DNA of 64,000 nucleotides from Seleniivibrio woodruffii (GTDB taxonomy: Bacteria; Chrysiogenota; Deferribacteres; Deferribacterales; Geovibrionaceae): the NCBI RefSeq assembly GCF_029267515.1, contig NZ_JAJUIS010000001.1:124001-188000 (forward strand), read 5' to 3'. The notes under the pieces were generated by a model. That model did no database searches and had not been told where the DNA came from. It was given only the letters and a program-made list of their open reading frames with translations. The stretch's first letter is position 1. Every line of letters begins with the position of its first letter. This document shows positions 17,811 to 41,546 of the stretch, in pieces. The position numbers and the translations under genes are program-made.

Positions 17811-17811
17811 G

Positions 17812-18255
17812 TTATTCCGCTTTCACGTTAACTTTTACTTCGGCGTTTATGTCCATGTATATTTTAACCTTTATGCTGTATTCACCAGGCTCTTTTATAT
17901 GGTCTTTCATGGCGATGTCTTTTTTGTCAACCTCAACCCCGGCATCATGCAGAGCCTTCGCTATGTCTGCGGAGGTTATTGCGCCGTAAAGTTTTCCCGT
18001 ATCGCCGCCTTTTCCTGTTATAGTTATGCCGGTTTTATTGAGTGTCTCGGCAAACGCTTTCGCCTCGGCAATTTTATGTGCCTCGCGCTCTTTCGCCGCC
18101 TGCTTCTTGGCTTCCAGCGCTGCAAGGTTGGCTGGTGTTGCCTCTATGGCGAGTTTCTTTTTAAACAGAAAATTCTGCGCATATCCGTCCTTCGCTTCTT
18201 TTATCTCGTCTTTTTTCGCAACGCCTTTGACGTCCTGAAGAAATATTACTTTCAT
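17812..18255 (-). CDS. rplI: 50S ribosomal protein L9
   Basis: 147 residues with the L9 signature [16 protein letters not shown], then G-Y-A-x-N-F-L (DGYAQNFLF), a long charged helix, and a C-terminal rRNA-binding domain ([15 protein letters not shown]). The start is ATG 18255 with GGGAGAAAG upstream; the frame stays open to 18309, but those codons do not look like L9. Confidence 0.97.
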
Positions 18256-18321
18256 TGTTCTTTCTCCCGTTCTATGAGACGCTTCGGGTATCTGCCCTCG
18301 CAGTGGCAAAGCTATCTCAAT

Positions 18322-18792
18322 TTAATTGTCATCCGAATCCAGAATATCAATTATCTCATTGAAGGAATAACCCTTTCTGTAAAAATGAGCAATACATTTC
18401 TGTTTCAGTTCATATGGGGTCTTCCCCTTTTTCGTCTCCATGAACCGTCTGACCATCTCCGCAAGCTGTGCCTTAGTGTCTATGCTTCGCTCTCCGGCTA
18501 TCTCGTCCATATCCACAAGATCGGCATCAATACCCTTCTCACGCAGTTCCTCGACGATGCGGTATCTGCCGTAACCAGACCGCAGCCGCGAGGCTATCAG
18601 GTTTTTCCGGCACTTCTCGTCGTCGATATAGCCGTAGTCTTTCAGCTTTAAGATGGTCTCGTCCGCGGCTTCGTCCCCGAAATGCTCCGCTATCTTTGCG
18701 CGCATCTCGCTTTCGAAAAAATCACGCCGCGCAAGCACCCTGAGCGCATACTCGAAAGGGGTTTTGCTCCGTATCTTCCGTTTTGGGAACAG
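18322..18792 (-). CDS. recX: RecX-family regulator of RecA
   Basis: RecX binds and inhibits RecA filaments. The protein shows the three-helix repeats of the family (ALRVLARRDFFESEMRAKI; LKDYGYIDDEKC; GRYRIVEELREKGI). The first ATG/GTG/TTG in frame is GTG 18738. It has no ribosome site and would remove half of the first helix. The reading frame extends upstream as sensible RecX sequence to CTG 18792, which is preceded by GGAAGGAG at a spacing of 8 and lies 4 bases after the pilT stop. I therefore prefer CTG (156 residues). The location between recA-pilT and rplI supports the assignment. Confidence 0.82.
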   Translation of the reverse strand: MFPKRKIRSKTPFEYALRVLARRDFFESEMRAKIAEHFGDEAADETILKLKDYGYIDDEKCRKNLIASRLRSGYGRYRIVEELREKGIDADLVDMDEIAGERSIDTKAQLAEMVRRFMETKKGKTPYELKQKCIAHFYRKGYSFNEIIDILDSDDN

Positions 18793-18796
18793 CCTG

Positions 18797-19879
18797 TCAG
18801 CTCCTTCCGCCGGAAAAGCCCGCCAGCTTCAGCTTGAGGTCGTCTGGGCGTTTCGCCCATTTCAGCGCCTCTTCCTGCGTTATGAATCCGGCATCTATGT
18901 GGTCCATCAGGGACTGGTCAAATGACTGGGATTTATAAATGTCCCGACCCTGTTCAATGAAATCAGTTATCTCGTGTATTCTGTCCTTGTCGGAGATACA
19001 CTCCTTTATGGTTCCGGTGGACACCATTATCTCAACCGCAGGCACCCTGCCCGGCTTGTCGCTTCGTGGCACAAGCCTCTGGGAAATGACAGCATTGAGC
19101 ACGGATGCCAGTTGCAGCCGTACCTGCTCCTGTCTGTGGGGTTCGAAAACGGATATTATCCTGTTTATTGTCTCAGGAGCATCCAGCGTGTGCAGTGTGG
19201 ACATAACAAGGTGTCCGGTCTCCGCCGCATGGAGCGCCGTTTCGATGGTCTCAACATCCCGCATCTCGCCCACAAGTATCATATCCGGATCCTGCCGCAG
19301 CGCCCTTTTAAGCGCCTCGGAAAAGGAGTTCGTATCCGCACCCACCTCTCTCTGGGAGATGGCGGACAGTTTATCCGTGTGGAGAAACTCTATGGGATCC
19401 TCCACGGTGATTATATTTATCTTTTTGGTGCGGTTGACATAATCTATCATGGAAGCAAGTGTGGTAGACTTCCCGCTTCCCGTTATGCCTGTCACCAGAA
19501 CCAGCCCTCTGTGCTTGCCCGATATCTCTTTGATAACCTCCGGCAGCAGCAGACTGTCGATGTCCGGTATCTTTTCGGGGATGAGGCGCAGCACCAATCC
19601 AATCATCCCTCGCTGTATATACGCGTTCACACGGAAGCGCGCCACACCCCGCAGGGCATATGCGAAATCAGCCTCCTTGCGCTCCTTAAACTCGGATTTG
19701 AGCTGCGGGGGCATTATGCTGCCCGCCATCCTGACGGCATCCTCTGCCGTTACAGTCTCAAAGCCGTCCAGATTCTCCATCTCACCGTGCAGGCGCACAA
19801 CAGGCGGTCTGCCCACCTTGATGTGTATATCCGAAACGCCAAGCAAAGCCGCTTTTGTGAGAACCGCGTTTATATCCAT
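18797..19879 (-). CDS. pilT: Type IV pilus retraction ATPase PilT
   Basis: Hexameric ATPase that depolymerises type IV pili (twitching). 360 residues. Motifs: Walker A GITGSGKSTTLA near residue 133, the Asp box ITVEDPIEFLH, Walker B QDPDMILVGEMRD, and the His box TGHLVMSTLHTLDA. The start is one base downstream of the recA stop (TAGGATG), so it belongs to the recA transcript. This is an unusual but compact arrangement. Pilus structural genes are not in the window. Confidence 0.95.
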   Translation of the reverse strand: MDINAVLTKAALLGVSDIHIKVGRPPVVRLHGEMENLDGFETVTAEDAVRMAGSIMPPQLKSEFKERKEADFAYALRGVARFRVNAYIQRGMIGLVLRLIPEKIPDIDSLLLPEVIKEISGKHRGLVLVTGITGSGKSTTLASMIDYVNRTKKINIITVEDPIEFLHTDKLSAISQREVGADTNSFSEALKRALRQDPDMILVGEMRDVETIETALHAAETGHLVMSTLHTLDAPETINRIISVFEPHRQEQVRLQLASVLNAVISQRLVPRSDKPGRVPAVEIMVSTGTIKECISDKDRIHEITDFIEQGRDIYKSQSFDQSLMDHIDAGFITQEEALKWAKRPDDLKLKLAGFSGGRS

Positions 19880-19880
19880 C

Positions 19881-20903
19881 CTATTCCTCTTCGGGAACGG
19901 TTTTTCCTTTGTATTCGGTCACTGCATATTTTTCGCGTATTTTAGTCTCAAGCTCCGCTGCCTCTTCGGGGTGTTCTTTAAGCCACGTTCTTGAGTTCTC
20001 CTTGCCCTGACCTATCTTAGCGTCGCCATAGCTGAACCATGCGCCCGCCTTTCCGATGAATCCTGCGTCCACGCCCATGTCAATGAGCAGACCTTCGCGG
20101 GAAACACCTTCTCCGTACATGATATCGAACTCCGCCGTTTTGAAGGGGGGCGCAACCTTGTTCTTAACAACCTTGGCTATGCCGTGGTTACCCACAACCT
20201 CTTCCTTCTCTTTCAGAGCCTGAGATTTCTTTATCTCTATACGCATGGATGCGTAGAATTTCAGTGCGTTTCCGCCTGTTGTCGTTTCGGGGTTGCCGTA
20301 TACGACACCAATCTTCGAACGGGTCTGGTTGATGAATATCAGCGTGGTCTGAGATTTGTTTACGATGCTGGTGAGCTTTCTCAGCGCCTGGCTCATAAGC
20401 CTAGCCTGAAGACCCATGTGCGAATCGCCCATCTCGCCCTCTATCTCCGCGCGGGGGGTGAGAGCTGCAACGGAGTCCACAACAATGATATCTATTGCGC
20501 CGCTTCGCACCAGCGTCTCTGTTATCTCCAGTGCCGCCTCGCCGCTGTCGGGCTGGCTGACCAGCAGGTTGTCGGTGTCAACGCCGATGGCTTTTGCATA
20601 AACAGGATCAAGGGCGTGTTCCGCATCGACAAACGCAGCCGCACCACCCAATTTCTGCACTTCGGCTATGGCGTGAAGAGCGATGGTGGTCTTACCGCTG
20701 GATTCAGCTCCGTAAATCTCAATTATTCTGCCTTTGGGAAATCCGCCCACTCCCAGCGCAATGTCCAGCGACAGGATGCCTGTGGACACGACGGGGAGTT
20801 TTTCGTTGGGTCTGTCGCCAAGACGCATAACGGCGCCCTTGCCGAAATCCTTCTCAATCTTGCCCAGAGCAAGCTCCAGGGCTTTTTTCTTATCCTGATC
20901 CAT
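19881..20903 (-). CDS. recA: Recombinase RecA
   Basis: Strand-exchange and SOS co-protease protein, 340 residues. Typical start ([17 protein letters not shown]), Walker [14 protein letters not shown], Walker [11 protein letters not shown], and the L2 loop region [27 protein letters not shown] lies directly before ATG 20903. First gene of recA-pilT-recX-rplI-dnaB. Its upstream region has a sigma-70-like promoter and a 15-base palindrome. Confidence 0.98.
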
Positions 20904-21767: not shown

Positions 21768-22907
21768 TCAGCCGACCTGTTCCATTCTTATATACGGTAT
21801 CGTAAGATTATTTAAAAGAGCGGGATTGAGCGCCTGATGCTTACCGAAAACCATGACATCCGCATCCTGAACCGCAAGGAACTCTTCCGTGGTCATAAAA
21901 TTCAGTCCGTCCGCATCCTTAACGTTATCATCCACAACCGTCACAAGCCTGCCCGGCAGATGTCTCTGCAAAAACCGCACGACGGCTCTTCCCGATTCGC
22001 CGTAACCGAAAGAGGCTATTTTCATGGTATTTCCGAAATTGTCCAGAATCTCTTCAAGGTCTTCATAAAGCCTGCTCAGTCCAGAAAATCCCCGCGCCTC
22101 CAGATTTCCCAGATACTTTTCAAGACACCCGTAAAGTGCATCGTCCTTTCCGTAGAATATATGATTCACAGTACTGCGTGAGAAATGCACGAAAACCAGA
22201 GGGAATCCGCCGTCTATCAATATCCTGCCCTCATGAACGGTTCTGGGACATTCGTGAATGTTCCACGAGGCAACGTTGCAGCCCTTATGACGTAAAATCC
22301 TAACCCCTTCAAACATAACGGGCAGAGCGTCCAGATACTTCTGGTCATAAAACAATCCGGCATCGACATCTTTTCTGCATTCATAAAGACAGGAATCCGA
22401 AAGCCAGCTCATGGCTTCCAGCCCTTCAGAGCTTACCGCAATAAAGCCGCCGTTAAAAAAACCTTCCGTAAAATTAAGATAAAAATGCAGAGGGCTCTTT
22501 GCCGGGTTAAAACTCCTCCAATGCGGTGTCAGCAGCACTCCGCTGCCATTCAGCATATCGAAAAGAAAATCATAGGAGTCAAAAAAATACGTGTCTGCAT
22601 CAGCGTATATGACCTTCTCATACCCCTTCTCTTCAATCAGGTATGAAATGTATTCAGGCTTCATCGCCCACCTGAAAGCGCTCTTGTCAGACCCGTAATA
22701 TTTGCTGAACAGCTTCGCTGTGTTCCCGAATCCCATAAGGTCGTTTATGTTATGTATATGAACGCCTTCCGGCAGATCATATTCCATGTTTTCCTGAGAC
22801 GAAATAAATATATGAAGAGACGCATTGCCGTTTTCGCGCAATGAATCAAAGAGGGTGAGAGCCATAGGAATATAGTCGCCGGTCACAACTGTGCAGAAAG
22901 TATTCAT
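21768..22907 (-). CDS. GT-A glycosyltransferase with C-terminal Rossmann-like module (paralogue 2)
   Basis: 379 residues. The N-terminal ~270 residues look like a GT8-type transferase: FCTVVTGDYIPMAL at the start, a DADTYFF metal motif near residue 100, TPHWRSF, FFNGGFIAV and a late HFSRSTV. Residues 296-379 are the shared island module: FGYGESG loop, VVDDN strand end, VFGKHQALNPAL, and IRME near the end. It is a clear paralogue of the gene immediately upstream and overlaps it as ATGA, which indicates tandem duplication and coupled translation. Donor and acceptor sugars are unknown. Confidence 0.8.
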   Translation of the reverse strand: MNTFCTVVTGDYIPMALTLFDSLRENGNASLHIFISSQENMEYDLPEGVHIHNINDLMGFGNTAKLFSKYYGSDKSAFRWAMKPEYISYLIEEKGYEKVIYADADTYFFDSYDFLFDMLNGSGVLLTPHWRSFNPAKSPLHFYLNFTEGFFNGGFIAVSSEGLEAMSWLSDSCLYECRKDVDAGLFYDQKYLDALPVMFEGVRILRHKGCNVASWNIHECPRTVHEGRILIDGGFPLVFVHFSRSTVNHIFYGKDDALYGCLEKYLGNLEARGFSGLSRLYEDLEEILDNFGNTMKIASFGYGESGRAVVRFLQRHLPGRLVTVVDDNVKDADGLNFMTTEEFLAVQDADVMVFGKHQALNPALLNNLTIPYIRMEQVG

Positions 22908-24127
22908 CTTACGTTCTCCAGCCTGACGAAAGGCACGTTCAGTCCATCTATCAGCTCAGGATTTACATCCTGATATTTCCCGCAGATAACCACACCGACC
23001 TCATTCTGTTTCTCAGACAAGAACTCCTGCGTTGTAACCGCAGAAATACCGCAGTACGGCTTTTGCACCCTGTCGTCGATGAAATATCTCACCTGTCCGG
23101 GAAAATATTTTTTCGTATATTCATAACAGAGCATCCCCGCTCTGCCCATGCCGAAGATCGCAATATCCTTTCCGTTCAGCAGATGCTGAATATCTCTTAT
23201 ACTCTCAAGCTCCTCAAGCAGCCTGCCTCTTTCGCCTGAAAGTTTTGAAATATAGGAAACAAGCCCCTCTGCGCCCGCCAACAAAAGTTTTTTGACAGGG
23301 AAATCCCTTTCATCGAGATTTTTTATGTATTTCAGCAGATAACCCTGCAAAAGCGGGTCGTCTCCACGAAAAATACCTTTTACCGCATTTGTTGAAAAAT
23401 GAACGAAAACAACTGGAAATTCACCGCATATCAGTACGTTTCCGTCTGATATACTCCTCGGACATTCGTGTATGTTCCATATCGCAACGTTGCAACCTTT
23501 GTGCCGGACAATGCCTACGCCTTCAAACATAACAGGCAGAGCGTCCAGATACTTCTGATCGACAAAAAGACCTCTGGCACTATCTTTCGTACACTCATAT
23601 GCACAAACTCCGGACAGCCACATCATAGCATCAGTACCTTTTTCTGAAACGCCTATAAAACCGCCGTTAAAAAAACCATCCGTAAAGTTAAGGTGAAAAT
23701 GAGCACTGCTCTTTTCCGGCGAAAAAGACCGCCAATGGGGAGTTAAAAGCACTCTGTGCGAATCGAGCATATCGAAAAGAAAGCTGTAAGAACTGAAATA
23801 ATAAGTATCTGGGTCTGTAAAAAGAACCTTCTTAAACCCCTTCTTCTCTATAAGGTACATGATAAATTCAGGCTTCATGCTCCAACGAAAAGCATCAGAA
23901 TCGCTATCGTAATACTTTTCGTATATCTTTCCCGAATTGCCGTAAGGCAGAAGGTCATCCACATAGCTTAATGTAACACCTTCCGGCATTTCCGGTTCAT
24001 CCTCTCTGAATGAGGAAACAAGAATATGAAGCGCCGCGTCGCCATGCGCCCGTATGGAATCGTGCAGAGCCAGAGCCATGGGCAGGTAGTCCGGAGTCAC
24101 AATTGTGCAGAAAGTATGCTCAGGCAT
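22904..24127 (-). CDS. GT-A glycosyltransferase with C-terminal Rossmann-like module (paralogue 1)
   Basis: 407 residues, same architecture as its downstream neighbour. Transferase region: FCTIVTPDYLPMAL, DPDTYYF metal motif, TPHWRSFSPEKS, FFNGGFIGV and KGCNVAIWNIHECP. Residues 321-407 are the shared module: FGMGRAG, FIDDR, CGKYQDVNPEL and VRLE. Ribosome site AAGGAG lies 7 bases before ATG 24127, and 13 bases separate it from the upstream fusion gene. Family and module are seen directly; the sugar is unknown. Confidence 0.8.
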   Translation of the reverse strand: MPEHTFCTIVTPDYLPMALALHDSIRAHGDAALHILVSSFREDEPEMPEGVTLSYVDDLLPYGNSGKIYEKYYDSDSDAFRWSMKPEFIMYLIEKKGFKKVLFTDPDTYYFSSYSFLFDMLDSHRVLLTPHWRSFSPEKSSAHFHLNFTDGFFNGGFIGVSEKGTDAMMWLSGVCAYECTKDSARGLFVDQKYLDALPVMFEGVGIVRHKGCNVAIWNIHECPRSISDGNVLICGEFPVVFVHFSTNAVKGIFRGDDPLLQGYLLKYIKNLDERDFPVKKLLLAGAEGLVSYISKLSGERGRLLEELESIRDIQHLLNGKDIAIFGMGRAGMLCYEYTKKYFPGQVRYFIDDRVQKPYCGISAVTTQEFLSEKQNEVGVVICGKYQDVNPELIDGLNVPFVRLENVR

Positions 24128-24140
24128 CCGAATCTCCTTA

Positions 24141-26405
24141 CTATACTATAAGCTCAAGCCTTATCAGCGGTATTTTCAGTTCGGTTTCCAGAGCCGGATT
24201 AAGCCGCTGGAACCTGCCGCATACAAGCGCATCCGTTTCAAATTCACCTCCGAGCAGATCGGCGGAAGAGATGACCGGAACACCGTTGTGGCTGCCTGTC
24301 CTGTTATCATCCACAACAAAACACAGCCTTTCCGGATAGTATGAGGTAAGAAACTCAATCGTTTTCATCCCTGAAACACCCAGACCGAAAACCGCAAGAC
24401 GTCTGTGCTGAGCAAGTTGCCCGATGGCTTCGAGCCTGAGTTTCATATATCTGTTTTCCGCTTCATAACGGGACATTTTCGGGAGTTGAACGTGATATCT
24501 TTCGCGGTAAAAGAGGGCGTCCCCACGGGATATTTTTCCGCTCTCCCTGTTGAGATAATCTTTCAGAACTGCGTGCAGTCCTCCGATATCCTTTCCGGTT
24601 TTCAGAGCTTCGAAAAGCTCAAGGCTGAAATCCCTTACAAAGCCGTCAACATCGCTTCTGTCCGTATTAACGGATCTTTTCATACTGCTGTCTATGAAAT
24701 CGTCGTCTCCGGTTTTCATCTCCATACCCGTATATTCCTCCACGCGCTCAAGAACACCCTTGCGGTCTGAAAGCAGATCGTCATAATTTACTCTCAGACA
24801 GCCGAAATCTTCCGAATATATTTCTGAATATATGTTGTTTAAGCACCAGATAAGGAGGGATTTACCGATATTGAAACCCATCACCTTTGAAAGCGACTGC
24901 GCCGCTTCGAAGGGATGTCTTATCATCCTGATGATTCTGACATCGATGGACATCTCGTCCAGCGCCCTGAGGTATAAAGGCAGAACAGCACATATTCTTG
25001 GGTCTTTCAACGCAAAATAAGGTGCCCGACCATACTCCTCTGTGATGATGGCTTTAAGCTCCTCAACGTTCTTCGTCTGCATAACGCTGTCAAGATAGTC
25101 CTGCGGTTTTGCGATATCATCCCAATAGGTTCCCGCCTCTGCCATGACCTTATCGTTAAAGGCTATAAGCCTCTCATCTTCAAAATAGCCTTTCTTATTA
25201 TTTTCAGACGGCGCAAGAAGTTTCCTTCCGAGCGTAACGCCCGCTTTTTCCAGAAGTCCAGTCATTGCCGACGTTCCGCATCTGTTTGAACCGACAACAA
25301 TCATGCACTGACGATATTTCTCTTTCGACATAATTCTGAGTTTATCAGGTTTCATAACATACCTATAGTTTTCTCCGAGTATTCCTCTGACCTTTTCCAG
25401 TCTCCGCAAAACAGTGTCCGCAGGAACTTTCGGAAATATTTCACACGAGCCGGAATAACCTCTTTCAAGATATATGAACATTGAGCAGGAATAAAACGGA
25501 TATGCGGCAAGCACATCAACGGTGTCCATAAAATCTTCCTCCGTTTCCGCAGGAAAGCCAGCAATCGCATGAAAATGCGTGGGAATACCGTATTTATTAA
25601 GAATCCGTATCATATTCAGCAGCCCCTGTTTAGTGTAGCCGCGCTGCATAAGCTCAAGTATGCGGTCGCTGCCGGACTGAAAACCGACAGCCAGACTGGC
25701 AATCCTGCCGGAACTGCAAAGTTTTTCAAACTTTTCCGGCTCTTTTATGAAGTATTTAACGTTAAGTTCGCCGATATTGATTTTGAAATTTCCTGATACT
25801 TTGAACACTTCATCAAACATATCAAACACTGTCAGACCGATATCAAGCCCGTATGCACCGACGTCGTCCCCAAGAAAAAGGATACGCTGATACCCAAGCG
25901 CAACTCCGCGCCTTACCTCTTCAAGTATCTCCTCAAGGGGTTTGCTTATCAGGTCGCCCACAACGGTCTTGTCACCGCAATAGGAACAGTTATCCAAACA
26001 CCCGCGGGAGGTCATAACCGCGAACTGTTTTCTGTTGCCGTCAGGATGGTTCTGCTCGCCGACGTCCTTATATCTAACTTTTTCCGCGAAATGTGCATCA
26101 AGAATACTCATATTTTCAAGGGGGATTATCCTGTCGCTTTTAACACCCAAACCGATGAGACTGTCTTTTGCTGTTTTTGCAAGCCCCTCAAGGACAAAAA
26201 GATTTTTCGAAAGGAACCCCTTTATTTTTTCCAGCCCGACATCCTCTCTGTATGTGTTGAAAGCACAGCAGTAATATATTATATTCTCAGCGTCATCAGG
26301 ATTATCTGTAATATCAAACCCGTTTAAAATGAAATATTCGCGCAGTTTTTCCGTGTCCAGCCGTCTTCTGAAACAAACGCCTTCGAAATGGAGATATACG
26401 CTCAT
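24141..26405 (-). CDS. Radical SAM (MiaB-like) - sulfotransferase - Rossmann-like module fusion
   Basis: 754 residues in three parts. Residues 1-350 resemble methylthiotransferases: an N-terminal MTTase-like domain (YYCCAFNTYRED), then the radical SAM cluster Cys-x3-Cys-x2-Cys in SRGCLDNCSYCGD, and HFHAIAGFPAETEEDF. The third auxiliary cysteine expected in MiaB is missing (FVLEGLAKT), and there is no TRAM domain. Residues ~365-600 are a sulfotransferase: P-loop VVGSNRCGTSAM for the PAPS 5'-phosphosulfate, and RMIRHPFEAAQSL for its 3'-phosphate. Residues 669-754 are the shared island module: FGLGVSG, VVDDN, CGRFQRLNPAL and IRLE. It overlaps the upstream gene as ATGA. A tRNA-modification role is unlikely. 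Combined action on a glycan or peptide is inferred. Confidence 0.78.
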   Translation of the reverse strand: MSVYLHFEGVCFRRRLDTEKLREYFILNGFDITDNPDDAENIIYYCCAFNTYREDVGLEKIKGFLSKNLFVLEGLAKTAKDSLIGLGVKSDRIIPLENMSILDAHFAEKVRYKDVGEQNHPDGNRKQFAVMTSRGCLDNCSYCGDKTVVGDLISKPLEEILEEVRRGVALGYQRILFLGDDVGAYGLDIGLTVFDMFDEVFKVSGNFKINIGELNVKYFIKEPEKFEKLCSSGRIASLAVGFQSGSDRILELMQRGYTKQGLLNMIRILNKYGIPTHFHAIAGFPAETEEDFMDTVDVLAAYPFYSCSMFIYLERGYSGSCEIFPKVPADTVLRRLEKVRGILGENYRYVMKPDKLRIMSKEKYRQCMIVVGSNRCGTSAMTGLLEKAGVTLGRKLLAPSENNKKGYFEDERLIAFNDKVMAEAGTYWDDIAKPQDYLDSVMQTKNVEELKAIITEEYGRAPYFALKDPRICAVLPLYLRALDEMSIDVRIIRMIRHPFEAAQSLSKVMGFNIGKSLLIWCLNNIYSEIYSEDFGCLRVNYDDLLSDRKGVLERVEEYTGMEMKTGDDDFIDSSMKRSVNTDRSDVDGFVRDFSLELFEALKTGKDIGGLHAVLKDYLNRESGKISRGDALFYRERYHVQLPKMSRYEAENRYMKLRLEAIGQLAQHRRLAVFGLGVSGMKTIEFLTSYYPERLCFVVDDNRTGSHNGVPVISSADLLGGEFETDALVCGRFQRLNPALETELKIPLIRLELIV

Positions 26406-27064
26406 TTTCTTTCCCCAAGCAGATTTTTATGGGTTTCATTGAACCTGCCGAGACAGTTCTTCTCCGACAGCGGTCTGTTCTTAATTTCAGTATAATATTC
26501 GAGCATATGGGGCTGCCGCATTTTTTTGCTTATACGCCCGAAAAGGTTTCTCACCATATCGCCGCTTACGGTTTTGAAGTGGGTCAGTCCGTCGAATAAA
26601 GGATATATATGCCCGTCCTCATCTTTCAGAGGTGATAAATTTTCCGTATAAAAAAACTTCTTCTCCGTTTCGGAGAGCTTAATAAAATTCACCATACAGG
26701 AGAGCTGAAGAGCTGAAGCCGATTCCTCCGCGTCGCCGAAATCCGCCAGAGTATCCATAACGGAGACCAGCCAGCGAAGATTCATCTCTTTGCAGATGTG
26801 CCCGCTGTGTTCTCTTGCTATGTGCAGAAATAGTGCCGAATTGACGTCCGTATCCATATTGCGGCGCAGAAAAACTATCATCCTTGCAGTTTCATAGGCA
26901 AGAGCCGATCTGCCTGTAAAATCTTTTCTTATTATTTCGAAATGCTCCGAAAGGTCTTTGCTGTAATGTTTTCCAATTTCCGCAGCGGCAGAGACACGTT
27001 CGCTTTTCAGCCTTGCTATGTCATTATTCAGGTCGGATACAGACTTGTATATGACGTATTCCAT
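26402..27064 (-). CDS. Uncharacterised glycan-island protein
   Basis: 220 residues, not recognised. It looks mostly helical and soluble, with no signal peptide or membrane segment and no catalytic motif I can name. A longer start at 27154 would overlap the methyltransferase by 131 bases. ATG 27064, with AGGA 9 bases upstream, is preferred and leaves a 41-base overlap. The stop overlaps the start of the radical SAM-sulfotransferase gene (ATGA). Position between a methyltransferase and that fusion suggests a partner protein for the same pathway. Confidence 0.7.
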   Translation of the reverse strand: MEYVIYKSVSDLNNDIARLKSERVSAAAEIGKHYSKDLSEHFEIIRKDFTGRSALAYETARMIVFLRRNMDTDVNSALFLHIAREHSGHICKEMNLRWLVSVMDTLADFGDAEESASALQLSCMVNFIKLSETEKKFFYTENLSPLKDEDGHIYPLFDGLTHFKTVSGDMVRNLFGRISKKMRQPHMLEYYTEIKNRPLSEKNCLGRFNETHKNLLGERK

Positions 27065-27614
27065 AATATATTTCCTGAAAAATGTATTTGTGTACAGACT
27101 TCCATGTGATGATCCCGCAGCCGTTGCCGTATTCGTCAAAAATGACCTCCGCATCCGGAAAATACTCTGTTATCAGTCCGAGCCACCACTTTGTGTTCCT
27201 CACAGTGCAATGTGCGTTTCGACCGTCCGGCAAAATTTCCCCCGCAGGTCTCGTTGAGATATGAAAAAATACATTCCGGCTAAGCGCCGCCAGTTCTCCA
27301 ACCACCTTGCGGCAGTCATCTTCAACAACATGCTCCATAACATCCGTACATGTGATAAAGTCATATTTATCAAGCGGAATAAAATTTATACCGTCTATAG
27401 CCGGGTCGTACCTGTGAGCATCCGCATTTGAATATTCGCTCATCATATCTGCAAGCCTGCTCTGTCCGCACCCGTAATCCAATATGTTTTTCGGTGCAAT
27501 ATCCTCCATAAGAAGGCGTATCATATTGATGAACCTTGCTGAATTCTGTCCGTAGGTTTTCGTTTTATGGATGTGTCTGTACATGGAATTGAGATAATCG
27601 TTTACAACGGGCAT
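27024..27614 (-). CDS. Class I SAM-dependent methyltransferase
   Basis: 196 residues. Motif I reads ILDYGCGQSRLADMM near residue 40, followed by YDFITCTDVMEHV and FFHISTRPAGEILPDGRNAH, all typical of small-molecule or sugar methyltransferases. ATG 27614 has GAGGTG upstream and starts 2 bases after the preceding stop codon; a GTG at 27620 overlaps that stop but has no ribosome site. Its 3' end overlaps the next gene by 41 bases. Probable glycan O- or N-methylation, by context. Confidence 0.82.
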   Translation of the reverse strand: MPVVNDYLNSMYRHIHKTKTYGQNSARFINMIRLLMEDIAPKNILDYGCGQSRLADMMSEYSNADAHRYDPAIDGINFIPLDKYDFITCTDVMEHVVEDDCRKVVGELAALSRNVFFHISTRPAGEILPDGRNAHCTVRNTKWWLGLITEYFPDAEVIFDEYGNGCGIITWKSVHKYIFQEIYYGIRHIQVCIRPE

Positions 27615-27616
27615 GT

Positions 27617-30571
27617 TCACCTCAGTATGCAGTCGAATTGTCCTTTGGCATCCTTATATTCCGCCGGTCTTCTGTAAACATCAAGAAGCCTGCGGTATAT
27701 CTTTTTTCTCCAGCAGAGTTCCGGATTATCAATCTCATATCCGAGCTGGTTTATCAGATAATCCAACCCTGTTGCGGTTCTGTAAAAATATTTTTTAAGT
27801 TCATCATCATCCCTGAAACAATCACCGTAAAGCGCCCTATATATCTCAAAATTGTCGTCAGGGAGTTTTTCAATGTGCAGCAGCGTTTTAACCAGCTCCG
27901 CATCCCTTTGGAAATACTCTAAAGACAACGCTTCGCTGAAAGTCTTTTCCCTGTGAGCCCAAAGGTAGACACGGCAGATATTATGCATGGCGACGTTACT
28001 TTTATTAACAGTTTCAACATCGTCATAAATCAATATATCTGAAGAGTATTTGGCATCCTCAGCAAAATCGTATATTCTGACCTGCGATTCCGGCAGTGCG
28101 GAAATCAACTCCTGTTCGGCGTCAAGCGCATCACGGCTGATATTCAGCACCGCCGCAGGGTGCGCTTTAAAAAATTCTCCGGCAATGCTTCTGAAAGATG
28201 AGTCTTTTTTCAGATATACCGATATCCCCATATTGTCCGTTCTCTCTGACTTTCTGAAGAAATCGCCGCAGGTCACTTCACTGTAATTATATTTCAGGTG
28301 CACCACACTTTTGATAACGAGGTCGGAGTACTTATCAACTGATTTGCCGTCGGACAGACAAACCGCGCTCTTCACATTTCCGCCCGGCTCAACGCGGAAC
28401 ATCCGCGATGCGCTGTTACCGTCAAGATATATGTCCAGCAGGAAATTTGCAACGAACGGGTCGTCCTCCGTGAAGAGGGAAACGCCGTCGACGAACCTGC
28501 CGCGGATGTCCGCTTCATAATCTTTCAGGTAATGGGGAATTATGAAAACAAATCTGCACAGCTGCGTCTTTTTCATGGTTTCTTCAACAAGACGCGGGAG
28601 AAAATCAGGAATATTCTCCGACAAAAGCACACATCCCACAGTCATTTTACCGACAGGAAGCGTTTTGCGCATTTCGTCTGCCCTCGTTTTCAGGCTGTTC
28701 CAGACAGGATTTGCAGAATCAGCCTGAAGATTGAACCGCTCTTCGTCGTTCTCCGACAGCTTAAAGCGCATCCGTAAATTCTCTCTGCCAATTTTTTTTG
28801 TAAGAGCTATCAGAAAACCGGCAGTTTCAGAATAGGCTGTCAAATCCGAAATATCGGTCACTGCGCCGATATTATTGTTGTAATAGAGATATTCAGACAT
28901 TGATTCGCCGCTGGGATTGGGAAAAGTGTTCATGTAAACGTCTATCACATGGCAGTATATCTGCGGGTCAACCCAAGATGTGAAAAAGAAGCGGTTTTCC
29001 AGTCCGTATTCCTTCGCTTTGGCAACTATCTTGGCAGATTCGCCGTGCCCGCACGCAAGATAAATTGTGTCGGGATTTTTAAGCATTATCTCCGCCGTCT
29101 TCTCTATGCAGCCGTCGCCTTCCAGCTTTATCAGGCGACCGATACTCCCCAGAATCACCTTCCCCTGCGGGTAGTTTCCTCTGATGATGTCCGCCTGTAT
29201 CTTCGCAGCTCTGATATCCGCTTCCATGAAAAGCATATGCTGACGGAGTCTGAATCTTTCATATTCAAGCTGATTCTCCTGCATAAGCCCCTGTGGAATA
29301 TGGGTAATTCTCCTATCCATTCCGTCGATGTCAAATTCGAAATTGCCGTGGCACCAGTATATCTGCAAAGGCGCAGTTCTTGACGCCAGCAAAAGGTTAT
29401 ACTGTTCCCTGTTGTTCATGGAAACCAGGATGTCTATACCGTCAGCAACTATCCTTTCCCTGAGTTTTACAGCCTTATTGAAATGGCTGTAATAGTGTCC
29501 GCTGCCGCTGTCGGTTATGATGCGGTGATTGCTGACGTATTTTACGCCAAGCTCTTCTATTATCCTTATCATTTCAGGGTCGGAGGGACTTTTTTCTATG
29601 GTTTCAAGGTCATAGACAAACAGTTCGTGGTCTGTCTGCTTTCTCAGTTCATACAGAAGCGAGTACAGAAGTTTGAACGGTGCGTTCTTTACCACTCTGT
29701 CCGGAACGAATGCTATCCTCTTTTTTCCGGAACAGTCCTTCATCTTTTCCACAGGTTTCAGCCCGTATTCAGGGATGACTTTTTCGCGGATATATGCAGA
29801 CAGAGGGATCTCAACGTCCGCGTTAAACTGTCTCATACCCTCCTGAGTGTTCATCAGATTCAGAAAGACGTGTGACAGCGGGAAGTGCATGAAAAAGACG
29901 AGCTCGGTTTTGTTTTTCGCTATGGCTTTGCGGAAAAGATCCAGCCAGACGTCCCTCAGACGTAGAAACTCCATGTCGACACCGAAACATACCCACAGGA
30001 TATTCGACACCCATAGGAAATTGGCTTTCTGAACCATAATCTCCTTCTGCCAGAAGCTCCCTCTGAAAACATTTTCGATAAGGATGTCCACCGTTTCGGT
30101 CAGTGTAAAAAGAGATTTTATGATATTCAGATACATTCTGAGCTGGTCGTTATTCTGTACAAAGCTGTTCGTGTTCAGGTCGGTTATTCTGCAAAGAAGA
30201 TTTTCCTTCGCCGTCTTTCCGTTGCCGCGCAGAACATCGTGCACAAAGATCATCAGCGCGTAGTTCAATTTTGCGTTGTGACTGTTGACATCCTTTATGT
30301 CGCTGTATCTTTTCTGCAGTTCTTTGCTGAGAGGCGCATCCATTCTGCTTTTTTCGATCTTTACGCAGCAGCGCAGCAGATGGGTTGCCAGTCTTATATA
30401 TTCGAAGTTGAATTTGTTTTCGGACATATCTTTCATGATCTGCCGTTCTTTCAGAAGAAAAAGAACCTCGTCGGCATGACCGGACTGAATAAAGCTGTCA
30501 AAACTGTTGTTTATGTCCGTCATCAGTGCCTGAAATTCATTACGGCGGCACATATCAAGATATTTAGACAT
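27617..30571 (-). CDS. Large glycosyltransferase, GT41/OGT-like GT-B core
   Basis: 984 residues, first gene of the minus-strand glycan operon. A helical N-terminal ~270 residues could take the place of the TPR region of O-GlcNAc transferases. The central part resembles the GT41-type GT-B fold: KKRIAFVPDRVVKNAP, QIYWCHGNFEFDIDGMD, VILGSIGRLIKLEGDG, RFFFTSWVDPQIYCHVIDVY, and FPNPSGESMSEYLYY. The C-terminal ~350 residues match nothing I know. The start is ATG 30571 (AGGTG upstream); a GTG at 30580 is the alternative. If OGT-like, the acceptor could be a Ser/Thr of a protein such as flagellin or a pilin, which is inference. Confident as a glycosyltransferase-like protein, less so as GT41. Confidence 0.62.
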   Translation of the reverse strand: MSKYLDMCRRNEFQALMTDINNSFDSFIQSGHADEVLFLLKERQIMKDMSENKFNFEYIRLATHLLRCCVKIEKSRMDAPLSKELQKRYSDIKDVNSHNAKLNYALMIFVHDVLRGNGKTAKENLLCRITDLNTNSFVQNNDQLRMYLNIIKSLFTLTETVDILIENVFRGSFWQKEIMVQKANFLWVSNILWVCFGVDMEFLRLRDVWLDLFRKAIAKNKTELVFFMHFPLSHVFLNLMNTQEGMRQFNADVEIPLSAYIREKVIPEYGLKPVEKMKDCSGKKRIAFVPDRVVKNAPFKLLYSLLYELRKQTDHELFVYDLETIEKSPSDPEMIRIIEELGVKYVSNHRIITDSGSGHYYSHFNKAVKLRERIVADGIDILVSMNNREQYNLLLASRTAPLQIYWCHGNFEFDIDGMDRRITHIPQGLMQENQLEYERFRLRQHMLFMEADIRAAKIQADIIRGNYPQGKVILGSIGRLIKLEGDGCIEKTAEIMLKNPDTIYLACGHGESAKIVAKAKEYGLENRFFFTSWVDPQIYCHVIDVYMNTFPNPSGESMSEYLYYNNNIGAVTDISDLTAYSETAGFLIALTKKIGRENLRMRFKLSENDEERFNLQADSANPVWNSLKTRADEMRKTLPVGKMTVGCVLLSENIPDFLPRLVEETMKKTQLCRFVFIIPHYLKDYEADIRGRFVDGVSLFTEDDPFVANFLLDIYLDGNSASRMFRVEPGGNVKSAVCLSDGKSVDKYSDLVIKSVVHLKYNYSEVTCGDFFRKSERTDNMGISVYLKKDSSFRSIAGEFFKAHPAAVLNISRDALDAEQELISALPESQVRIYDFAEDAKYSSDILIYDDVETVNKSNVAMHNICRVYLWAHREKTFSEALSLEYFQRDAELVKTLLHIEKLPDDNFEIYRALYGDCFRDDDELKKYFYRTATGLDYLINQLGYEIDNPELCWRKKIYRRLLDVYRRPAEYKDAKGQFDCILR

Positions 30572-30656
30572 AAAACGCACCTGCTGTGATTGATTATTCT
30601 TTTTAAAGTAAACTATCTATATTGATTTTGTCAATATTACATGTCGGATATTGCTC

Positions 30657-30686
30657 TTGACAATAAACAAAACCGTAAAGTAATAT
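30657..30686 (+). promoter_or_regulatory. Candidate sigma-70 promoter for the GT4-GT2 pair
   Basis: TTGACA (30657-30662), an 18-base spacer and TAATAT (30681-30686) lie 26 bases before GTG 30713. The divergent operon may use a TTGACA at 30634-30629 on the minus strand, but its -10 is poor. Confidence 0.6.
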
Positions 30687-30712
30687 TTAACAATCATCAA
30701 GGCGGATTTATC

Positions 30713-32224
30713 GTGAAACTTGCTTTGTTTCTACCTCAGATTGGGGCATATTCTGAAACTTTCATACAAAACCATATCCTCTTTCTCGCTCCCGAAAACA
30801 CAGTAGTGATAACGTCAAAAATCGGTGACAGATGGCATCTGCCGGACACTCCGGTGCTGGAGATAAAACAGACGGGGCTATGGGCAAAATATTCACAGGA
30901 GGATGAAGACAGGCTGTGCGGGTTTCTTCATAGGCACGGGGTAACACACCTTCTTATTGAATTTCCCAATACGTTCACAGCCATAGCCGAACTGAACCTG
31001 CGAAGGCTGAAACTCCCCCTGACCCTGCATTTCCACGGATACGACGCATCCCAGATGCTGAACAATGAAAACGTAGTCGGATTTTATAACTGGACAGCTT
31101 CCGTATGCGGCGGCTTCATAGCCGTTTCGGAAGTTATGAAAAACAGACTGGCGGCGCACGGTATTCAGGAAGACAAAATATATGTAAACTATTACGGAGT
31201 GAACAAAGAGAAACTGAAACCTCTCGCGCCACGGAATGACGGACGGTGCAGGTTTCTGTTCATCGGAAGATTCGTTTCAAAAAAAGCTCCGCTGATACTC
31301 CTTGAAGCGTTCAGAATCGCTTATCAGCAGGAGAAGAACATCGAACTGGTGATGATAGGCGATACCACCGAATACCACGCAAAGGATAACCTGCTGGAAA
31401 GATCCAAAGCCTTCGTAAAAGAGAACGGACTGGACGGGGTTGTCAGGTTCACAGGCTCGATTCCCCATGAAAAGGTCATGGACGAACTTTCGATGGCTGA
31501 CGTATATATTCAGCACTCCATAAAGTGTCCCGAAACCGGAGACAGTGAGGGACTGCCGAACTCTATTCTTGAAGCGTCCCTCAGCGGACTTCCCGTCATA
31601 GCGACCATCCACGAGGGTATTCCTGAAGCCGTAATCCACGGAGAGAACGGATTTCTTGTTCAGGAAGGGGACGCGCAGGGTATGGCGGAACATATTATCA
31701 GCCTCGCCCGATCTCCCGAAACCCGCACAAAAATGGGGCTGCGCAGTCTGGAACTGAACAGCATAAAATTCGACATCCGCACATCTATAGCCAAGCTCAG
31801 AAATATTCTGCTCTCAGCAGAGATGAATATCACTGACGAAGCCGCCGCACATGCAATTGCGGAACATGAAAAAAGAAATCCGGAATATTCCAATTCCGCG
31901 AGAATAAAGAAGATAATCGACGAAAATCAGGACAGCATTTTCGTTCTTCTTGGAGCCGGATACGGTCTCACCCTTCACTGGGATTTCATTGTACGCTCAG
32001 GATTGAAAGACAGAATCAGCTTCATCGTTGACGACAACGTAAAAACCTTTATGGGGCAGGACACAATCCCGTTTGGCAAACTTATATCCGACAACAAAGG
32101 CAAAAAAATAGTTTTTCTGCTGACAGTCGCCAGTAAAGAAAATTTTGAACTCCTCAGAAAAAAGGTCGATAATGAAGTCAGTGTAACTTCAAAAGTTTTT
32201 GCACTTTCACCGTATCTGATATGA
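30713..32224 (+). CDS. GT4-family glycosyltransferase with C-terminal Rossmann-like module
   Basis: 503 residues, GT-B fold. It begins MKLALFLPQIGAYSETFIQNH, has HFHGYDAS, the donor-site strand LFIGRFVSKKAPLILLEAF, and the E-x7-E motif within DSEGLPNSILEASLSG. About 90 residues at the C-terminus form a divergent copy of the island module: LLGAGYG and FIVDDN are clear, the C-G-K-x-Q part is not. GTG 30713, with AAGGCGG 7 bases upstream, is chosen; an ATG at 30641 has no ribosome site and precedes the normal GT4 start. Followed after 7 bases by the GT2 gene. Confidence 0.85.
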   Translation: MKLALFLPQIGAYSETFIQNHILFLAPENTVVITSKIGDRWHLPDTPVLEIKQTGLWAKYSQEDEDRLCGFLHRHGVTHLLIEFPNTFTAIAELNLRRLKLPLTLHFHGYDASQMLNNENVVGFYNWTASVCGGFIAVSEVMKNRLAAHGIQEDKIYVNYYGVNKEKLKPLAPRNDGRCRFLFIGRFVSKKAPLILLEAFRIAYQQEKNIELVMIGDTTEYHAKDNLLERSKAFVKENGLDGVVRFTGSIPHEKVMDELSMADVYIQHSIKCPETGDSEGLPNSILEASLSGLPVIATIHEGIPEAVIHGENGFLVQEGDAQGMAEHIISLARSPETRTKMGLRSLELNSIKFDIRTSIAKLRNILLSAEMNITDEAAAHAIAEHEKRNPEYSNSARIKKIIDENQDSIFVLLGAGYGLTLHWDFIVRSGLKDRISFIVDDNVKTFMGQDTIPFGKLISDNKGKKIVFLLTVASKENFELLRKKVDNEVSVTSKVFALSPYLI

Positions 32225-32231
32225 GATAACA

Positions 32232-33671
32232 ATGAACGATAAACCACTGCTGAAAATATCCGTAATAACCCCGACATTTAACCGGAGAGGTCTGTTAAAA
32301 CGAGCAGTTGAATCCGTGCTGTCACAGACCTACCCGAATTTTGAACATATCATAGTGAACGACGGGGGCGAAAGCGCCAAAGACATTATAGAAGGCTTTG
32401 CCGACAGCAGGCTGAAATATTACGACAGCAAAAAGAATCTGGGCAGATCAGGTTCCCGTAACTTTGCTCTGGAGCGCGCCACAGGCGATATAATCTGCTA
32501 TCTCGACGACGACGACCTTTACCTTGAAAACCACTTCGCAACAGTCGCCGATTTCTTCAGCAAAAACAGTGAGGCGGCAGCATGTTATACTGCACAGTAT
32601 TACTGTGTTGAAAACGAATACGGAGAGGTGCTTCACAAAAGGCACATGTCACCAGCCCCCAGACCGCTGACGGATCTGTATTACAACAACTTCATAAACA
32701 TGAATATCCTTGCCCACCGTAAAACGGCGCTTGAAACGGCAGGTATGTTCAACAACAGGTTAAAGGCATATGTCGATTGGGACTTCGTTCTTCAGTTGTC
32801 AAAACATTTCGATATACCGCATGTTCCGGTTTTCACCCACGAACACAGGCACAGGATAACTCCCGACAACATCAGCCACCCGCAGGTGCAGATAAAAAAT
32901 ATAGTGCGGATGACGAATATAATTTACAAGCTCCACCCCACGGACGATGCCGATATAATAAAGAAGAGAGAATCATATATCAGCGACAGGCGCAGGCTGA
33001 AGGCAAAAGTACGTTACCTGCGGAACAGAATAAAAAATTTCACACCGGATTATCTTGTCGTGTGCGGTTCAAAATCCGCCATGTCCTATAACAACGCCAT
33101 AATAGTCAACGTCGGCAGGAAAATTGATTTCATACTGGACAACGACCTGTACAAGACGCAGCAGACCTTCCTTAACATTCCGGTCATAAACGACATTATG
33201 CTCAATGAGCTTATGAACAGCCACAGTAACGGCAGATACAGCTTTATGATAAACGAAAGCAATACGCTGGACATAGAGCGCACCGCAGGAAATCTCAGTC
33301 AACTGCACAAAGAGCATAACGTGCAGATACTCAGAGTTGCCCACAACATATCGAGAAAAACCCCGAAAGAGGTTATTCACAGCATCAGACAGATATCCGC
33401 CGCCGGACAGGTTGCGCTTTTCGGCATAGGGCTTTCAGGACGAAAGGTAATGGAGTTTATGAAAAGAGCCCTGCCGGAAAAAGAATATTTCATAATAGAC
33501 GACTGCGGGCAAAAGGAGTTTGAAGGGATAAAAATAGTCAATACAACGGATTTCCTTTCAAACTGCGCAAGCAGCACCGATTTTGTCATATGCGGCAAAA
33601 GGCAGAACCTGAACGGCAGATTGGAAAACAACCCCGACGTTCAGATATTAAGACTTAATTTTATCGAATAA
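32232..33671 (+). CDS. GT2-family glycosyltransferase with one or two C-terminal Rossmann-like modules
   Basis: 479 residues. The GT2 domain is textbook: SVITPTFNRRGLLKRAVESV, NDGG, GRSGSRNFAL, and the metal motif YLDDDDLYLE. After it, residues ~273-375 look like a degenerate module copy (VVCGSKSAMS and FILDND). Residues 393-479 are a well-kept copy: FGIGLSG, FIIDD, CGKRQNLNGRL and LRLN. It lies 7 bases after the GT4 gene, probably on the same transcript. The convergent methyltransferase ends 2 bases after its stop. Confidence 0.86.
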   Translation: MNDKPLLKISVITPTFNRRGLLKRAVESVLSQTYPNFEHIIVNDGGESAKDIIEGFADSRLKYYDSKKNLGRSGSRNFALERATGDIICYLDDDDLYLENHFATVADFFSKNSEAAACYTAQYYCVENEYGEVLHKRHMSPAPRPLTDLYYNNFINMNILAHRKTALETAGMFNNRLKAYVDWDFVLQLSKHFDIPHVPVFTHEHRHRITPDNISHPQVQIKNIVRMTNIIYKLHPTDDADIIKKRESYISDRRRLKAKVRYLRNRIKNFTPDYLVVCGSKSAMSYNNAIIVNVGRKIDFILDNDLYKTQQTFLNIPVINDIMLNELMNSHSNGRYSFMINESNTLDIERTAGNLSQLHKEHNVQILRVAHNISRKTPKEVIHSIRQISAAGQVALFGIGLSGRKVMEFMKRALPEKEYFIIDDCGQKEFEGIKIVNTTDFLSNCASSTDFVICGKRQNLNGRLENNPDVQILRLNFIE

Positions 33672-38576: not shown

Positions 38577-38789
38577 ATGTTTAACGAAAACAATATCCGC
38601 TCTGTAATGAAAGCTGTGTCATGGCGCTTTTTCGGAACCTTAACAACTATAATCATAGTTTATGTTATGTTCAAGAGACTGGACGTTGCCGTGTTTACAG
38701 GTCTTCTGGAAACGGTATCGAAAATAGCCCTCTATTTTGTGCACGAGCGCATCTGGAACAGGATACCAATAGGCAAGAGCAATGTATGA
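38577..38789 (+). CDS. DUF2061 small membrane protein
   Basis: 70 residues. [25 protein letters not shown] and the closing [14 protein letters not shown] are DUF2061 signatures, with one to two membrane helices. Proteins of this family often sit beside sulfate-activation genes, and here the next gene is cysD (8-base overlap). Function is not known; a role with sulfate handling is inferred from neighbours only. Confidence 0.85.
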
Positions 38790-39678
38790 TCACTCATATC
38801 TGGACAGGCTGGAAGCGGAGAGCATCCATATAATCAGAGAGGCGGCGGCGGAAGCCTCAAAGCCTGTCATGCTCTACTCCATAGGAAAGGACTCCTCTGT
38901 TATGCTCCGCCTCGCAATGAAAGCGTTTCATCCCGCAAAACTCCCCTTCCCCGTCATGCACGTTGACACCGGCTGGAAGTTCCGTGAGATGATAACCTTC
39001 CGCGACGAGACTGCAAAACGTCTCGGACTCGACCTGATAGTTTATAAAAATCCCGAAGGCGCCGAAAAAGGCATAGACCCCTTTGTCCACGGCAGCAAGC
39101 TCCATACAGACATAATGAAAACAGACGCGCTGAAACAGGCGCTGAATTTGTACGGTTTCGATATGATTTTCGGCGGCGCAAGGCGCGACGAGGAAAAATC
39201 CAGAGCAAAAGAGCGCATCTTCTCTTTCAGGGATAAGAACCACAGATGGGATCCGAAAAACCAGCGCCCCGAACTCTGGAGCCACTACAATACAAAGCTG
39301 AACACAGGCGAGAGTATGCGCGTTTTCCCACTTTCAAACTGGACTGAACTCGACGTCTGGTTTTATATCCTGCGTGAAAAGATACCCGTTGTCCCGCTTT
39401 ATCTGGCAAAGGAGAGACCGGTTGCCGACGTAGGCGGTGTTCTCATAATGGCGGACGACAACAGGATGCCCCCTCAGTATGAAATCACCATGCAGTCCGT
39501 GCGGTTCCGCACACTGGGCTGTTATCCGCTCACAGGCGCTGTACCTTCTGTGGCATCCACCCTTGAGCAGGTCATAGAAGAGATGATGGTATCCACACTC
39601 TCCGAGCGTCAGGGACGGATAATAGATTTTGACCAGTCCGGCGCCATGGAAAAAAAGAAGACGGAAGGCTATTTCTGA
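38782..39678 (+). CDS. cysD: Sulfate adenylyltransferase small subunit
   Basis: ATP sulfurylase subunit of the PP-loop superfamily that makes APS from ATP and sulfate together with CysN. 298 residues. PP-loop [14 protein letters not shown] near residue 32, [23 protein letters not shown], and [14 protein letters not shown]. Its stop overlaps the next start (TGATG). No cysH, cysI or cysJ is adjacent, which favours PAPS for sulfation over sulfate reduction. Confidence 0.95.
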
Positions 39679-41546
39679 TGAGCAGGCTTGAAGAATACAT
39701 GGCTAAAGACTCCGCAAAACAGCTTCTGCGCTTTATCACATGCGGAAGTATCGACGACGGCAAAAGCACGCTCATCGGCAGACTTCTACACGAATGCCGC
39801 GCCGTTTACGACGACCAGATGGCTGCGGTCATAAGAGACAGCAGAACTTCAGGCACCACAGGTGACGAACCGGATCTCGCTCTCATTGTTGACGGACTGC
39901 TCGCAGAGCGTGAGCAGGGAATCACCATCGACGTTGCCCACAGATACTTTTCCACCGCAAAGCGTAAATTCATCATTCTGGACACACCGGGACACGAACA
40001 GTATACACGGAACATGGCTACAGGTGCATCAAACGCCGACCTGGCCGTGATTCTTATAGACGCGCTCAAGGGTATCAGCCCGCAGACAATACGCCACTCA
40101 TATATCGTGAAACTGATGGGTATCAGAAACGCCGTTGTCTGCGTCAATAAAATGGATGCGCAGGGCTACAGTGAAGCGGTTTTCAATAAAATTGCCGATG
40201 ATTATGCAAAGTTAGCTGAAAAAATAGGACTTTCATACAACATAATCCCCGTTTCGGCTCTTAAAGGGGACAACGTAACATCAAAAAGCGATAAAATGCC
40301 GTGGTACGACGGTCAATGCCTCATAGAGATGCTGGAAAGTGCCGTACAGGAGCCACCTTCCAGTCACGGCAACCTCAGGCTTCCTGTCCAGTATGTTCTC
40401 AGACCTGATAACAGCTTCCGCGGGTTCTGCGGACGCATCGAATCCGGCAGCATCTCCGTCGGAGACAGAGTTACAGTGCTGCCATCCGGCATATCAACCC
40501 GTGTCAAATCCGTGTCGATAGGCGACAGACAGGTGGAATCTGCATCAGCGCCGCTCTCCGTCACATTCACAACGGCGGACGAGGTGGACATAAGCCGCGG
40601 GGACATGATAGTCCATGACAAAACGTCAGTTATGTTCGGCAGCGGCTTCACCGCAAACCTGATATGGATGGATACCGAACACCTGAAACTCAATTCGCGA
40701 TATATTCTTAAATGCGCCACAGGCACCATAGGCGCACATATCAATAAAATTTTCAGCAGGATGAACATATCAACACTGAAAGAAGAACCCGCGTCATCAC
40801 TCGGCATGAACGACATAGCCTCGGTAGGCTTTTCACTTGACGCCTCAAAACCGTTCGACACCTATGAAATGTGCCGTGCCACAGGCAGCTTTATCCTTAT
40901 AGACAGAATGACGGGAATGACAGCGGCAGCGGGAATGATAACCGCGGCGGAAAATCCAAAAAACGTCATATGGCACACTCATTCCGTCACCCGTGAACAG
41001 AGAACCGGACTGAAAAATCACCGCCCCGCCGTTCTCTGGCTGACAGGTCTGAGCGGTTCCGGAAAATCCACCATAGCAAACGCTCTGGAACAAAGCCTGA
41101 ACCATTCGGGGATACATACCTATCTGCTGGACGGCGACAACGTGCGCCATGGACTCTGCAAAGATCTGGGATTTTCCCCTCAGGACAGAGAAGAGAACAT
41201 CAGACGCATAGGCGAAACGGCGAAACTTTTCGCGGATGCCGGAATACTGACAATTACTGCTTTTATATCGCCTTTCGCGGAAGGCAGGGACAAAGTGAGG
41301 GCGATAATGCCCGAAGGTGAATTCATAGAAGTGTTCATCGACGCACCTATAAACGTCTGCGAACAGCGTGACCCGAAAAATATGTATAAAAAAGCAAGAA
41401 AGGGCGAAATAAAAGAGTTTACAGGCATAAACTCACCCTATGAGACACCGGAATCACCTGAAATACATATACGCACTGATATCATGAGCATTGAGGAATC
41501 AGTTGAAAAAATCCTAAGCTATCTCAGAACAAAGCTGATAATCTAG
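39678..41546 (+). CDS. cysNC: Bifunctional sulfate adenylyltransferase GTPase subunit / APS kinase
   Basis: 622 residues. The N-terminal two thirds are the CysN GTPase: P-loop GSIDDGKS at residues 23-30, [16 protein letters not shown]. From about residue 440 it is APS kinase: P-loop GLSGSGKS near residue 456, [16 protein letters not shown], and [12 protein letters not shown]. With CysD it turns sulfate into PAPS, the donor used by the sulfotransferase domain encoded at 24141-26405. The TAG stop shares the CTAG palindrome with the cinA stop on the other strand. It ends the operon that begins near 34442. Confidence 0.95.

Follow-up and report, generated by a model that had tools for sequence, protein, structure and literature searches.

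The question raised by this locus is whether radical chemistry and sulfate transfer, encoded in one polypeptide chain, act together on one substrate. In the window, that is, the whole stretch of 64,000 nucleotides that was analysed, ORF analysis gives an intact frame of 754 codons on the minus strand, running from an ATG at 26405 to a stop at 24141, and no open frame on the plus strand over 24141-26405. The sequence-only reading had described a single 754-residue frame holding a methylthiotransferase-like radical SAM region, a PAPS sulfotransferase and a module shared with neighbouring genes, and its coordinates proved exact. The domains it named were matched, as Radical_SAM, MiaB/RimO-type (below the cut-off) and Sulfotransfer_3 (at the edge of the cut-off), when the whole protein was scanned with Pfam and NCBIfam profiles and the genome was searched in six frames for PF13469. 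The parts of the protein and the neighbouring features are given in Table 1.

Table 1. Positions of the fusion gene, its parts and the neighbouring features in the window.
Feature	Position	Strand	Evidence
754-aa fusion protein: radical SAM + PAPS sulfotransferase + island module	24141..26405	-	single ORF; G003/L031 orthologue with 95% identity across residues 1-754
Residues 1-124, UPF0004-type N-terminal part of MTTase fold	26034..26405	-	C11 and C47 present; Gly74 in place of the third cysteine; UPF0004 13.5 bits
Residues 125-345, radical SAM core, CxxxCxxC at 136-143	25371..26033	-	PF04055 E 1.3e-21; AF2 model and MiaB fold match
Residues 366-575, PAPS sulfotransferase	24681..25310	-	5'-PSB G..RxGTS, KDPR and 3'-PB R...S kept; Foldseek best = TPST1/2 with PAP
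Residues 576-660, helical linker	24426..24680	-	AF2 helices, partly low pLDDT; Ka/Ks 0.23
Residues 661-754, PglD_N-like Rossmann-type module	24144..24425	-	profile match 4m98 E 4e-4; pLDDT mostly >90
Module copy, C-terminus of glycosyltransferase-like 22904-24127	22907..23227	-	sequence match
Module copy, C-terminus of glycosyltransferase-like 21768-22907	21771..22076	-	sequence match
Module copy, C-terminus of GT2 glycosyltransferase 32232-33671	33351..33668	+	sequence match
250-aa protein, no Pfam match	26402..27154	-	stop overlaps the ATG of the fusion by 4 bases (operon-like)
987-aa protein, weakly GT41-like, first gene of minus-strand run	27617..30580	-	ORF and Pfam
CysD, sulfate adenylyltransferase subunit 2	38782..39678	+	PF01507 E 1.6e-58
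CysNC, sulfate adenylyltransferase subunit 1 + APS kinase (makes PAPS)	39678..41546	+	APS_kinase E 2e-69, GTP_EFTU E 3e-44

A fused frame of this kind could be produced by a sequencing error that merges two genes. A distinct species of the same genus (G003), sequenced in another assembly, encodes the same 754-aa protein with 95% identity and in an identical gene order. Ka/Ks between the two species rises from 0.07 in residues 1-124 through 0.10 in the radical core to 0.12 in both the sulfotransferase and the module; the linker has the highest value within the protein, 0.23. All parts of the fusion protein evolve under purifying selection. The intact ORF in the second species and the selection throughout rule out the merging of two genes, the probability of which is negligible, and the fusion is genuine. 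The radical half as a whole has a Ka/Ks of 0.09, and the low values in both catalytic halves indicate that both are maintained.

The fusion is rare. Among 60 relatives, no full-length copy was found beyond that of G003. A scan of genome_contigs with peptide patterns taken from the query, which distant fusions would escape, gave a sole full-length match in the Deferribacteraceae MAG UBA6793, probably the same genome as G003. Searches for full-length copies in 72,556 plasmid records, 50,697 phage records and viral contigs found none, and no description of a radical SAM-sulfotransferase fusion was found in the open-access literature, in keeping with the statement that no characterised enzyme with this domain order was known.

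In the N-terminal half, Radical_SAM (PF04055) matches residues 132-298 with 78 bits against a cut-off of 29.5, and the CxxxCxxC motif is intact (C136/C140/C143). With this motif and the core, the protein is by its sequence a member of the radical SAM superfamily, and cluster binding and SAM cleavage are predicted. The AF2 model of residues 1-360 (pLDDT 89) has MiaB as its best PDB fold (Foldseek E 5e-25, TM 0.80); residues 1-345 resemble MiaB, MtaB and RimO in fold, and other motifs conserved throughout the methylthiotransferase (MTTase) fold are kept besides CxxxCxxC. The score for the MiaB/RimO profile TIGR00089 is 151.8 bits against a cut-off of 251, and the similarity is below every MTTase family cut-off. 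The UPF0004 score is 13.5 bits (cut-off 27), compared with 37-46 bits in free-standing relatives that end without a TRAM domain.

Methylthiotransferases have three auxiliary-cluster cysteines, arranged as CysX35-36CysX32-33Cys (PMC5352715). In the fusion protein, C11 and C47 are kept at the X35 spacing and the third position (the C74 column, VxGC) is Gly, so that the auxiliary cysteine reported as lost is indeed missing. The third cysteine is present in 119 of 121 MTTase-fold ORFs, and only the fusion and its orthologue lack it. A further cysteine, C46, adjoins C47 and might act as a substitute auxiliary ligand; a CC pair near this position is also found in canonical enzymes that retain the third cysteine. 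The absence of TRAM, likewise claimed from the sequence, was confirmed by length, since the sulfotransferase (366) begins only about 20 residues after the radical SAM core ends (about 345), compared with 271-311 residues past CxxxCxxC in canonical MTTases. Length was the measure here, and Pfam is uninformative because a canonical MTTase control (L008) also has no Pfam TRAM match.

The 45 canonical MiaB/MtaB/RimO enzymes come together as one group (support 100/99) when 54 sequences are placed in a tree, and the fusion and the TRAM-less proteins fall outside it; several branches, including that of the fusion, are long, which calls for long-branch caution, and the relations among the outsiders are unsettled. 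The free-standing relatives that end where TRAM should begin occur in two genomes of the same family (G008 and G010) and in five other genomes; wider searches added few of them (L175-L177), most matches being MTTases of canonical length. Four of the seven are located in sugar clusters (L083, L087, L158, L159). Their neighbours in G008 and G010 are FkbM-type methyltransferases, glycosyltransferases and a DUF115/Maf-like protein (labelled Maf by eye, with a weak MptE-like match), those in G237 and G193 are nucleotide-sugar and transketolase genes, and those of L175-L177 read by eye as a methyltransferase, an ATP-grasp-like gene and an NRPS condensation-like gene. In G010, the gene directly before the TRAM-less one encodes another radical SAM protein (465 aa; L087:8131-9528), whose N-terminus looks B12-binding-type and which was not seen at the corresponding place in the G008 island.

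The TRAM-less proteins (L003, L005, L092, L107, L175-L177) have the same size as the radical half of the fusion, a similar cluster setting and a position off the canonical branch. They differ in being free-standing and in keeping all three auxiliary cysteines, as the closest relatives do, whereas the fusion is joined to a sulfotransferase and has lost the third. Neither TRAM-less MTTases nor methylthio sugars made by such enzymes were found in the open-access literature. With MiaB/MtaB/RimO (TIGR00089; PF00919 + PF04055 + TRAM), the fusion has in common the UPF0004-type and radical SAM fold, CxxxCxxC and two of the three auxiliary cysteines at X35; it differs in the missing TRAM and third cysteine, the scores below the cut-offs, the position outside the canonical group and the attached sulfotransferase. 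A more distant fold match is AprD4 (PDB 6fd2; Foldseek E 2.5e-12, TM 0.69), a radical SAM diol dehydratase whose substrate is an aminosugar, which at 12-14% identity is a lead only.

The radical half could still be a methylthiotransferase, acting on a sugar, in which C11, C47 and C46 (or an outside ligand) hold a sulfur-delivering cluster, so that the protein would add a methylthio group as well as sulfate. The retention of the whole fold, the canonical spacing of C11 and C47 with C46 beside them, and the sugar-cluster relatives with all three cysteines are consistent with this reading. It is nevertheless unlikely, in view of the Gly at the third position in both orthologues, the CC pair in canonical enzymes that have the third cysteine, and the UPF0004 score well under that of the TRAM-less relatives. 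By the tests run (third cysteine, TRAM, cut-offs and tree position), the protein should not be called a methylthiotransferase, although it has the same fold. The term methylthiotransferase-like thus holds for the fold and fails for the chemistry, where the auxiliary cluster site is incomplete.

The lost auxiliary ligand and TRAM, together with the long branch in the tree, could also mean that the radical half has no catalytic role, being a scaffold or remnant, and that the protein is effectively a sulfotransferase. This is quite improbable, because the Ka/Ks of 0.07-0.10 along this half represents a constraint no weaker than that on the sulfotransferase, and because CxxxCxxC and the other fold-wide motifs are kept.

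In the middle part, Sulfotransfer_3 (PF13469) matches residues 369-563 with 25.7 bits in the whole-protein hmmscan and 29.0 bits in the six-frame genome search, where the curated cut-off is 27. The 5'-PSB loop, KDPR and the Arg/Ser of the 3'-PB are kept at all the family-invariant alignment columns, and both PAPS-binding segments described from the sequence are therefore present, in agreement with the fold match to PAPS sulfotransferases. In the Foldseek search with the AF2 model, ranks 1-21 are all sulfotransferases; the top matches are tyrosylprotein sulfotransferases with PAP (TPST1/2), and others near the top are the olefin-synthase and curacin sulfotransferase domains and mycobacterial STF9. 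Assignment of the P-loop to a kinase-like family, which the sequence-only reading had named as the alternative, is ruled out, as no kinase scores better than E 2e-3. A PDB sequence search with the sulfotransferase part gave no match at E up to 5, and the comparison of folds took its place. The structure prediction proposed for the parts thus gave a MiaB fold for residues 1-360, a sulfotransferase fold for the middle part and a module that is mostly well modelled.

The nearest relatives of this part are GMHRSGTS-type sulfotransferases, many of which share a reading frame, up to about 2,000 residues long, with a glycosyltransferase or methyltransferase. The bacterial proteins of this type (PF13469; L139, L141, L144) have the same PAPS and KDPR motifs and show modular fusion in surface-polysaccharide proteins, but the partners of those examined are GT2 or methyltransferases and none is radical SAM. 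As far as these sequences indicate, modular fusion is common in this sulfotransferase clade, and the joining of radical SAM to a sulfotransferase is its newest layer only. Curacin and olefin synthases (PDB 4gbm, 4gox) likewise have a PAPS sulfotransferase domain inside a multidomain enzyme, but in a polyketide synthase setting and without radical SAM. The sulfation in these synthases sets up a subsequent step. Apart from the fusion, a sulfotransferase with a single domain and a length of about 340 aa (L120, G000:C13:119836-120324), which adjoins a methionine-synthase-like (metH-like) gene and is conserved in G001 and G003, could be another PAPS user.

Since the sulfotransferase clade is fused to many partners, such as GT2 and methyltransferases, these partners appear interchangeable. 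The two halves may accordingly be independent enzymes, fused just for common dosage or location and acting on different substrates of the same pathway; the conservation of the architecture in both species carrying the fusion speaks against this, and we regard it as possible but somewhat doubtful.

The surroundings of the fusion gene consist of glycosyltransferases, methyltransferases and a GalE-type epimerase, and the minus-strand run has the order 987-aa protein, methyltransferase, 250-aa protein, fusion, two glycosyltransferase-like proteins and methyltransferase. Counted from its first ATG, the 250-aa gene overlaps the methyltransferase gene by 131 bases, and its true start is probably an internal Met about 30 codons on. 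The C-terminal 94 residues of the fusion match the C-termini of three glycosyltransferase-like proteins, and the four copies of this module in the genome all lie inside the island, within 12 kb, so that it is a shared module, as had been described. Its profile matches the pilin-glycosylation protein 4m98, and it resembles the N-terminal domain of PglD/NeuD (PF17836); however, the score against Pfam PglD_N is 14.1 bits, below the cut-off of 23.4, weak matches were obtained for 7 of 11 module copies, the best with E 0.0038, and no acetyltransferase domain comes after it. The restriction of the module to the island would be consistent with a role in docking or sorting within a single pathway.

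The genes for PAPS supply, CysD and CysNC, sit between the last island gene and cinA, here as well as in G003 and G004. In G002, the island abuts cinA directly, without a CysD-CysNC insertion there, and no PF13469 sulfotransferase was found; G002 and G004 both carry PAPS genes without such a sulfotransferase. In the present genome, a draft of 35 contigs, no CysH-type PAPS reductase was found and the sole strong PF01507 match is CysD; therefore, sulfation is a likelier use of PAPS than assimilation. In G003, a CysH-like pair is present at a separate location in the genome. APS kinase and Sulfotransfer_3 co-occur in seven of the nine sulfotransferase genomes (two-by-two counts 7/2/3/39 over 51 genomes of the phylum), with a Fisher p of 3e-5 when genomes are counted and 0.001 when genera are. 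Several sulfotransferases come after CysDNC in G011, and one of them is part of a 692-aa multidomain protein. The island of G004 at the same site encodes, next to CysDNC, a 705-aa protein with HIGKTAGMT and FLRNPYS motifs (L188:5522-7639), which is sulfotransferase-like by eye only and has no Pfam match.

The best reading of these results, held with moderate confidence, is that the fusion probably has two activities and tailors a sulfated surface glycan. It is based on the PAPS motifs and fold, CysD-CysNC at the island edge, the constrained radical half, the sugar-gene setting and the island-only module. Sulfate would be converted to PAPS by the adjoining CysD and CysNC, and the middle domain would use PAPS to place a sulfuryl group on a hydroxyl of the island-made glycan (or a glycolipid or glycoprotein). 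The N-terminal domain would use one [4Fe-4S] cluster and SAM to form a 5'-deoxyadenosyl radical and may alter a carbon on the same sugar or chain as is sulfated. Because the auxiliary cluster is minus one ligand, MiaB-type methylthiolation is improbable, and the radical step may be a dehydration, epimerisation, oxidation or related reaction. The C-terminal module, common to three island glycosyltransferases, probably docks the enzymes to a shared partner or assembly. A coupled modification of the same substrate, as the sequence-only reading had suggested, is plausible from the fusion and the PAPS genes at the island edge. More tentatively, the MTTase fold may have been diverted from the methylthiolation of tRNA and protein to give a sugar-acting radical family of glycan islands. 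In the present genus, its member would have given up the auxiliary cluster and become fused to a PAPS sulfotransferase, so that both chemistries would act on one glycan.

These results point to an undescribed branch of the MiaB/RimO fold in sugar or natural-product clusters that would not act on tRNA or ribosomes. The fusion protein is a natural variant minus one auxiliary-cluster ligand, which is useful for asking what that cluster is for. The presence of sulfated surface glycans in some Deferribacteraceae is also suggested, with the fusion, CysD, CysNC and the island as a testable gene set.

Two further observations concern the island. The frame at 36418-37521 encodes a radical SAM/SPASM protein, which is conserved beside a DUF354 gene in G002, G003 and G004. 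Synonymous divergence from G003 within the island (21768-33671) is 0.20 for the fusion, 0.22 for the 987-aa protein and only 0.03 for the 250-aa gene, and 0.57 for the glycosyltransferase at 21768-22907; elsewhere it is 0.78 for dnaB, 0.33 for recA and 0.59 for CysNC, the flanks at 16491-20903 having been compared. Divergence is thus lower in much of the island than in these other genes, and recent exchange appears to have made a mosaic of the island.
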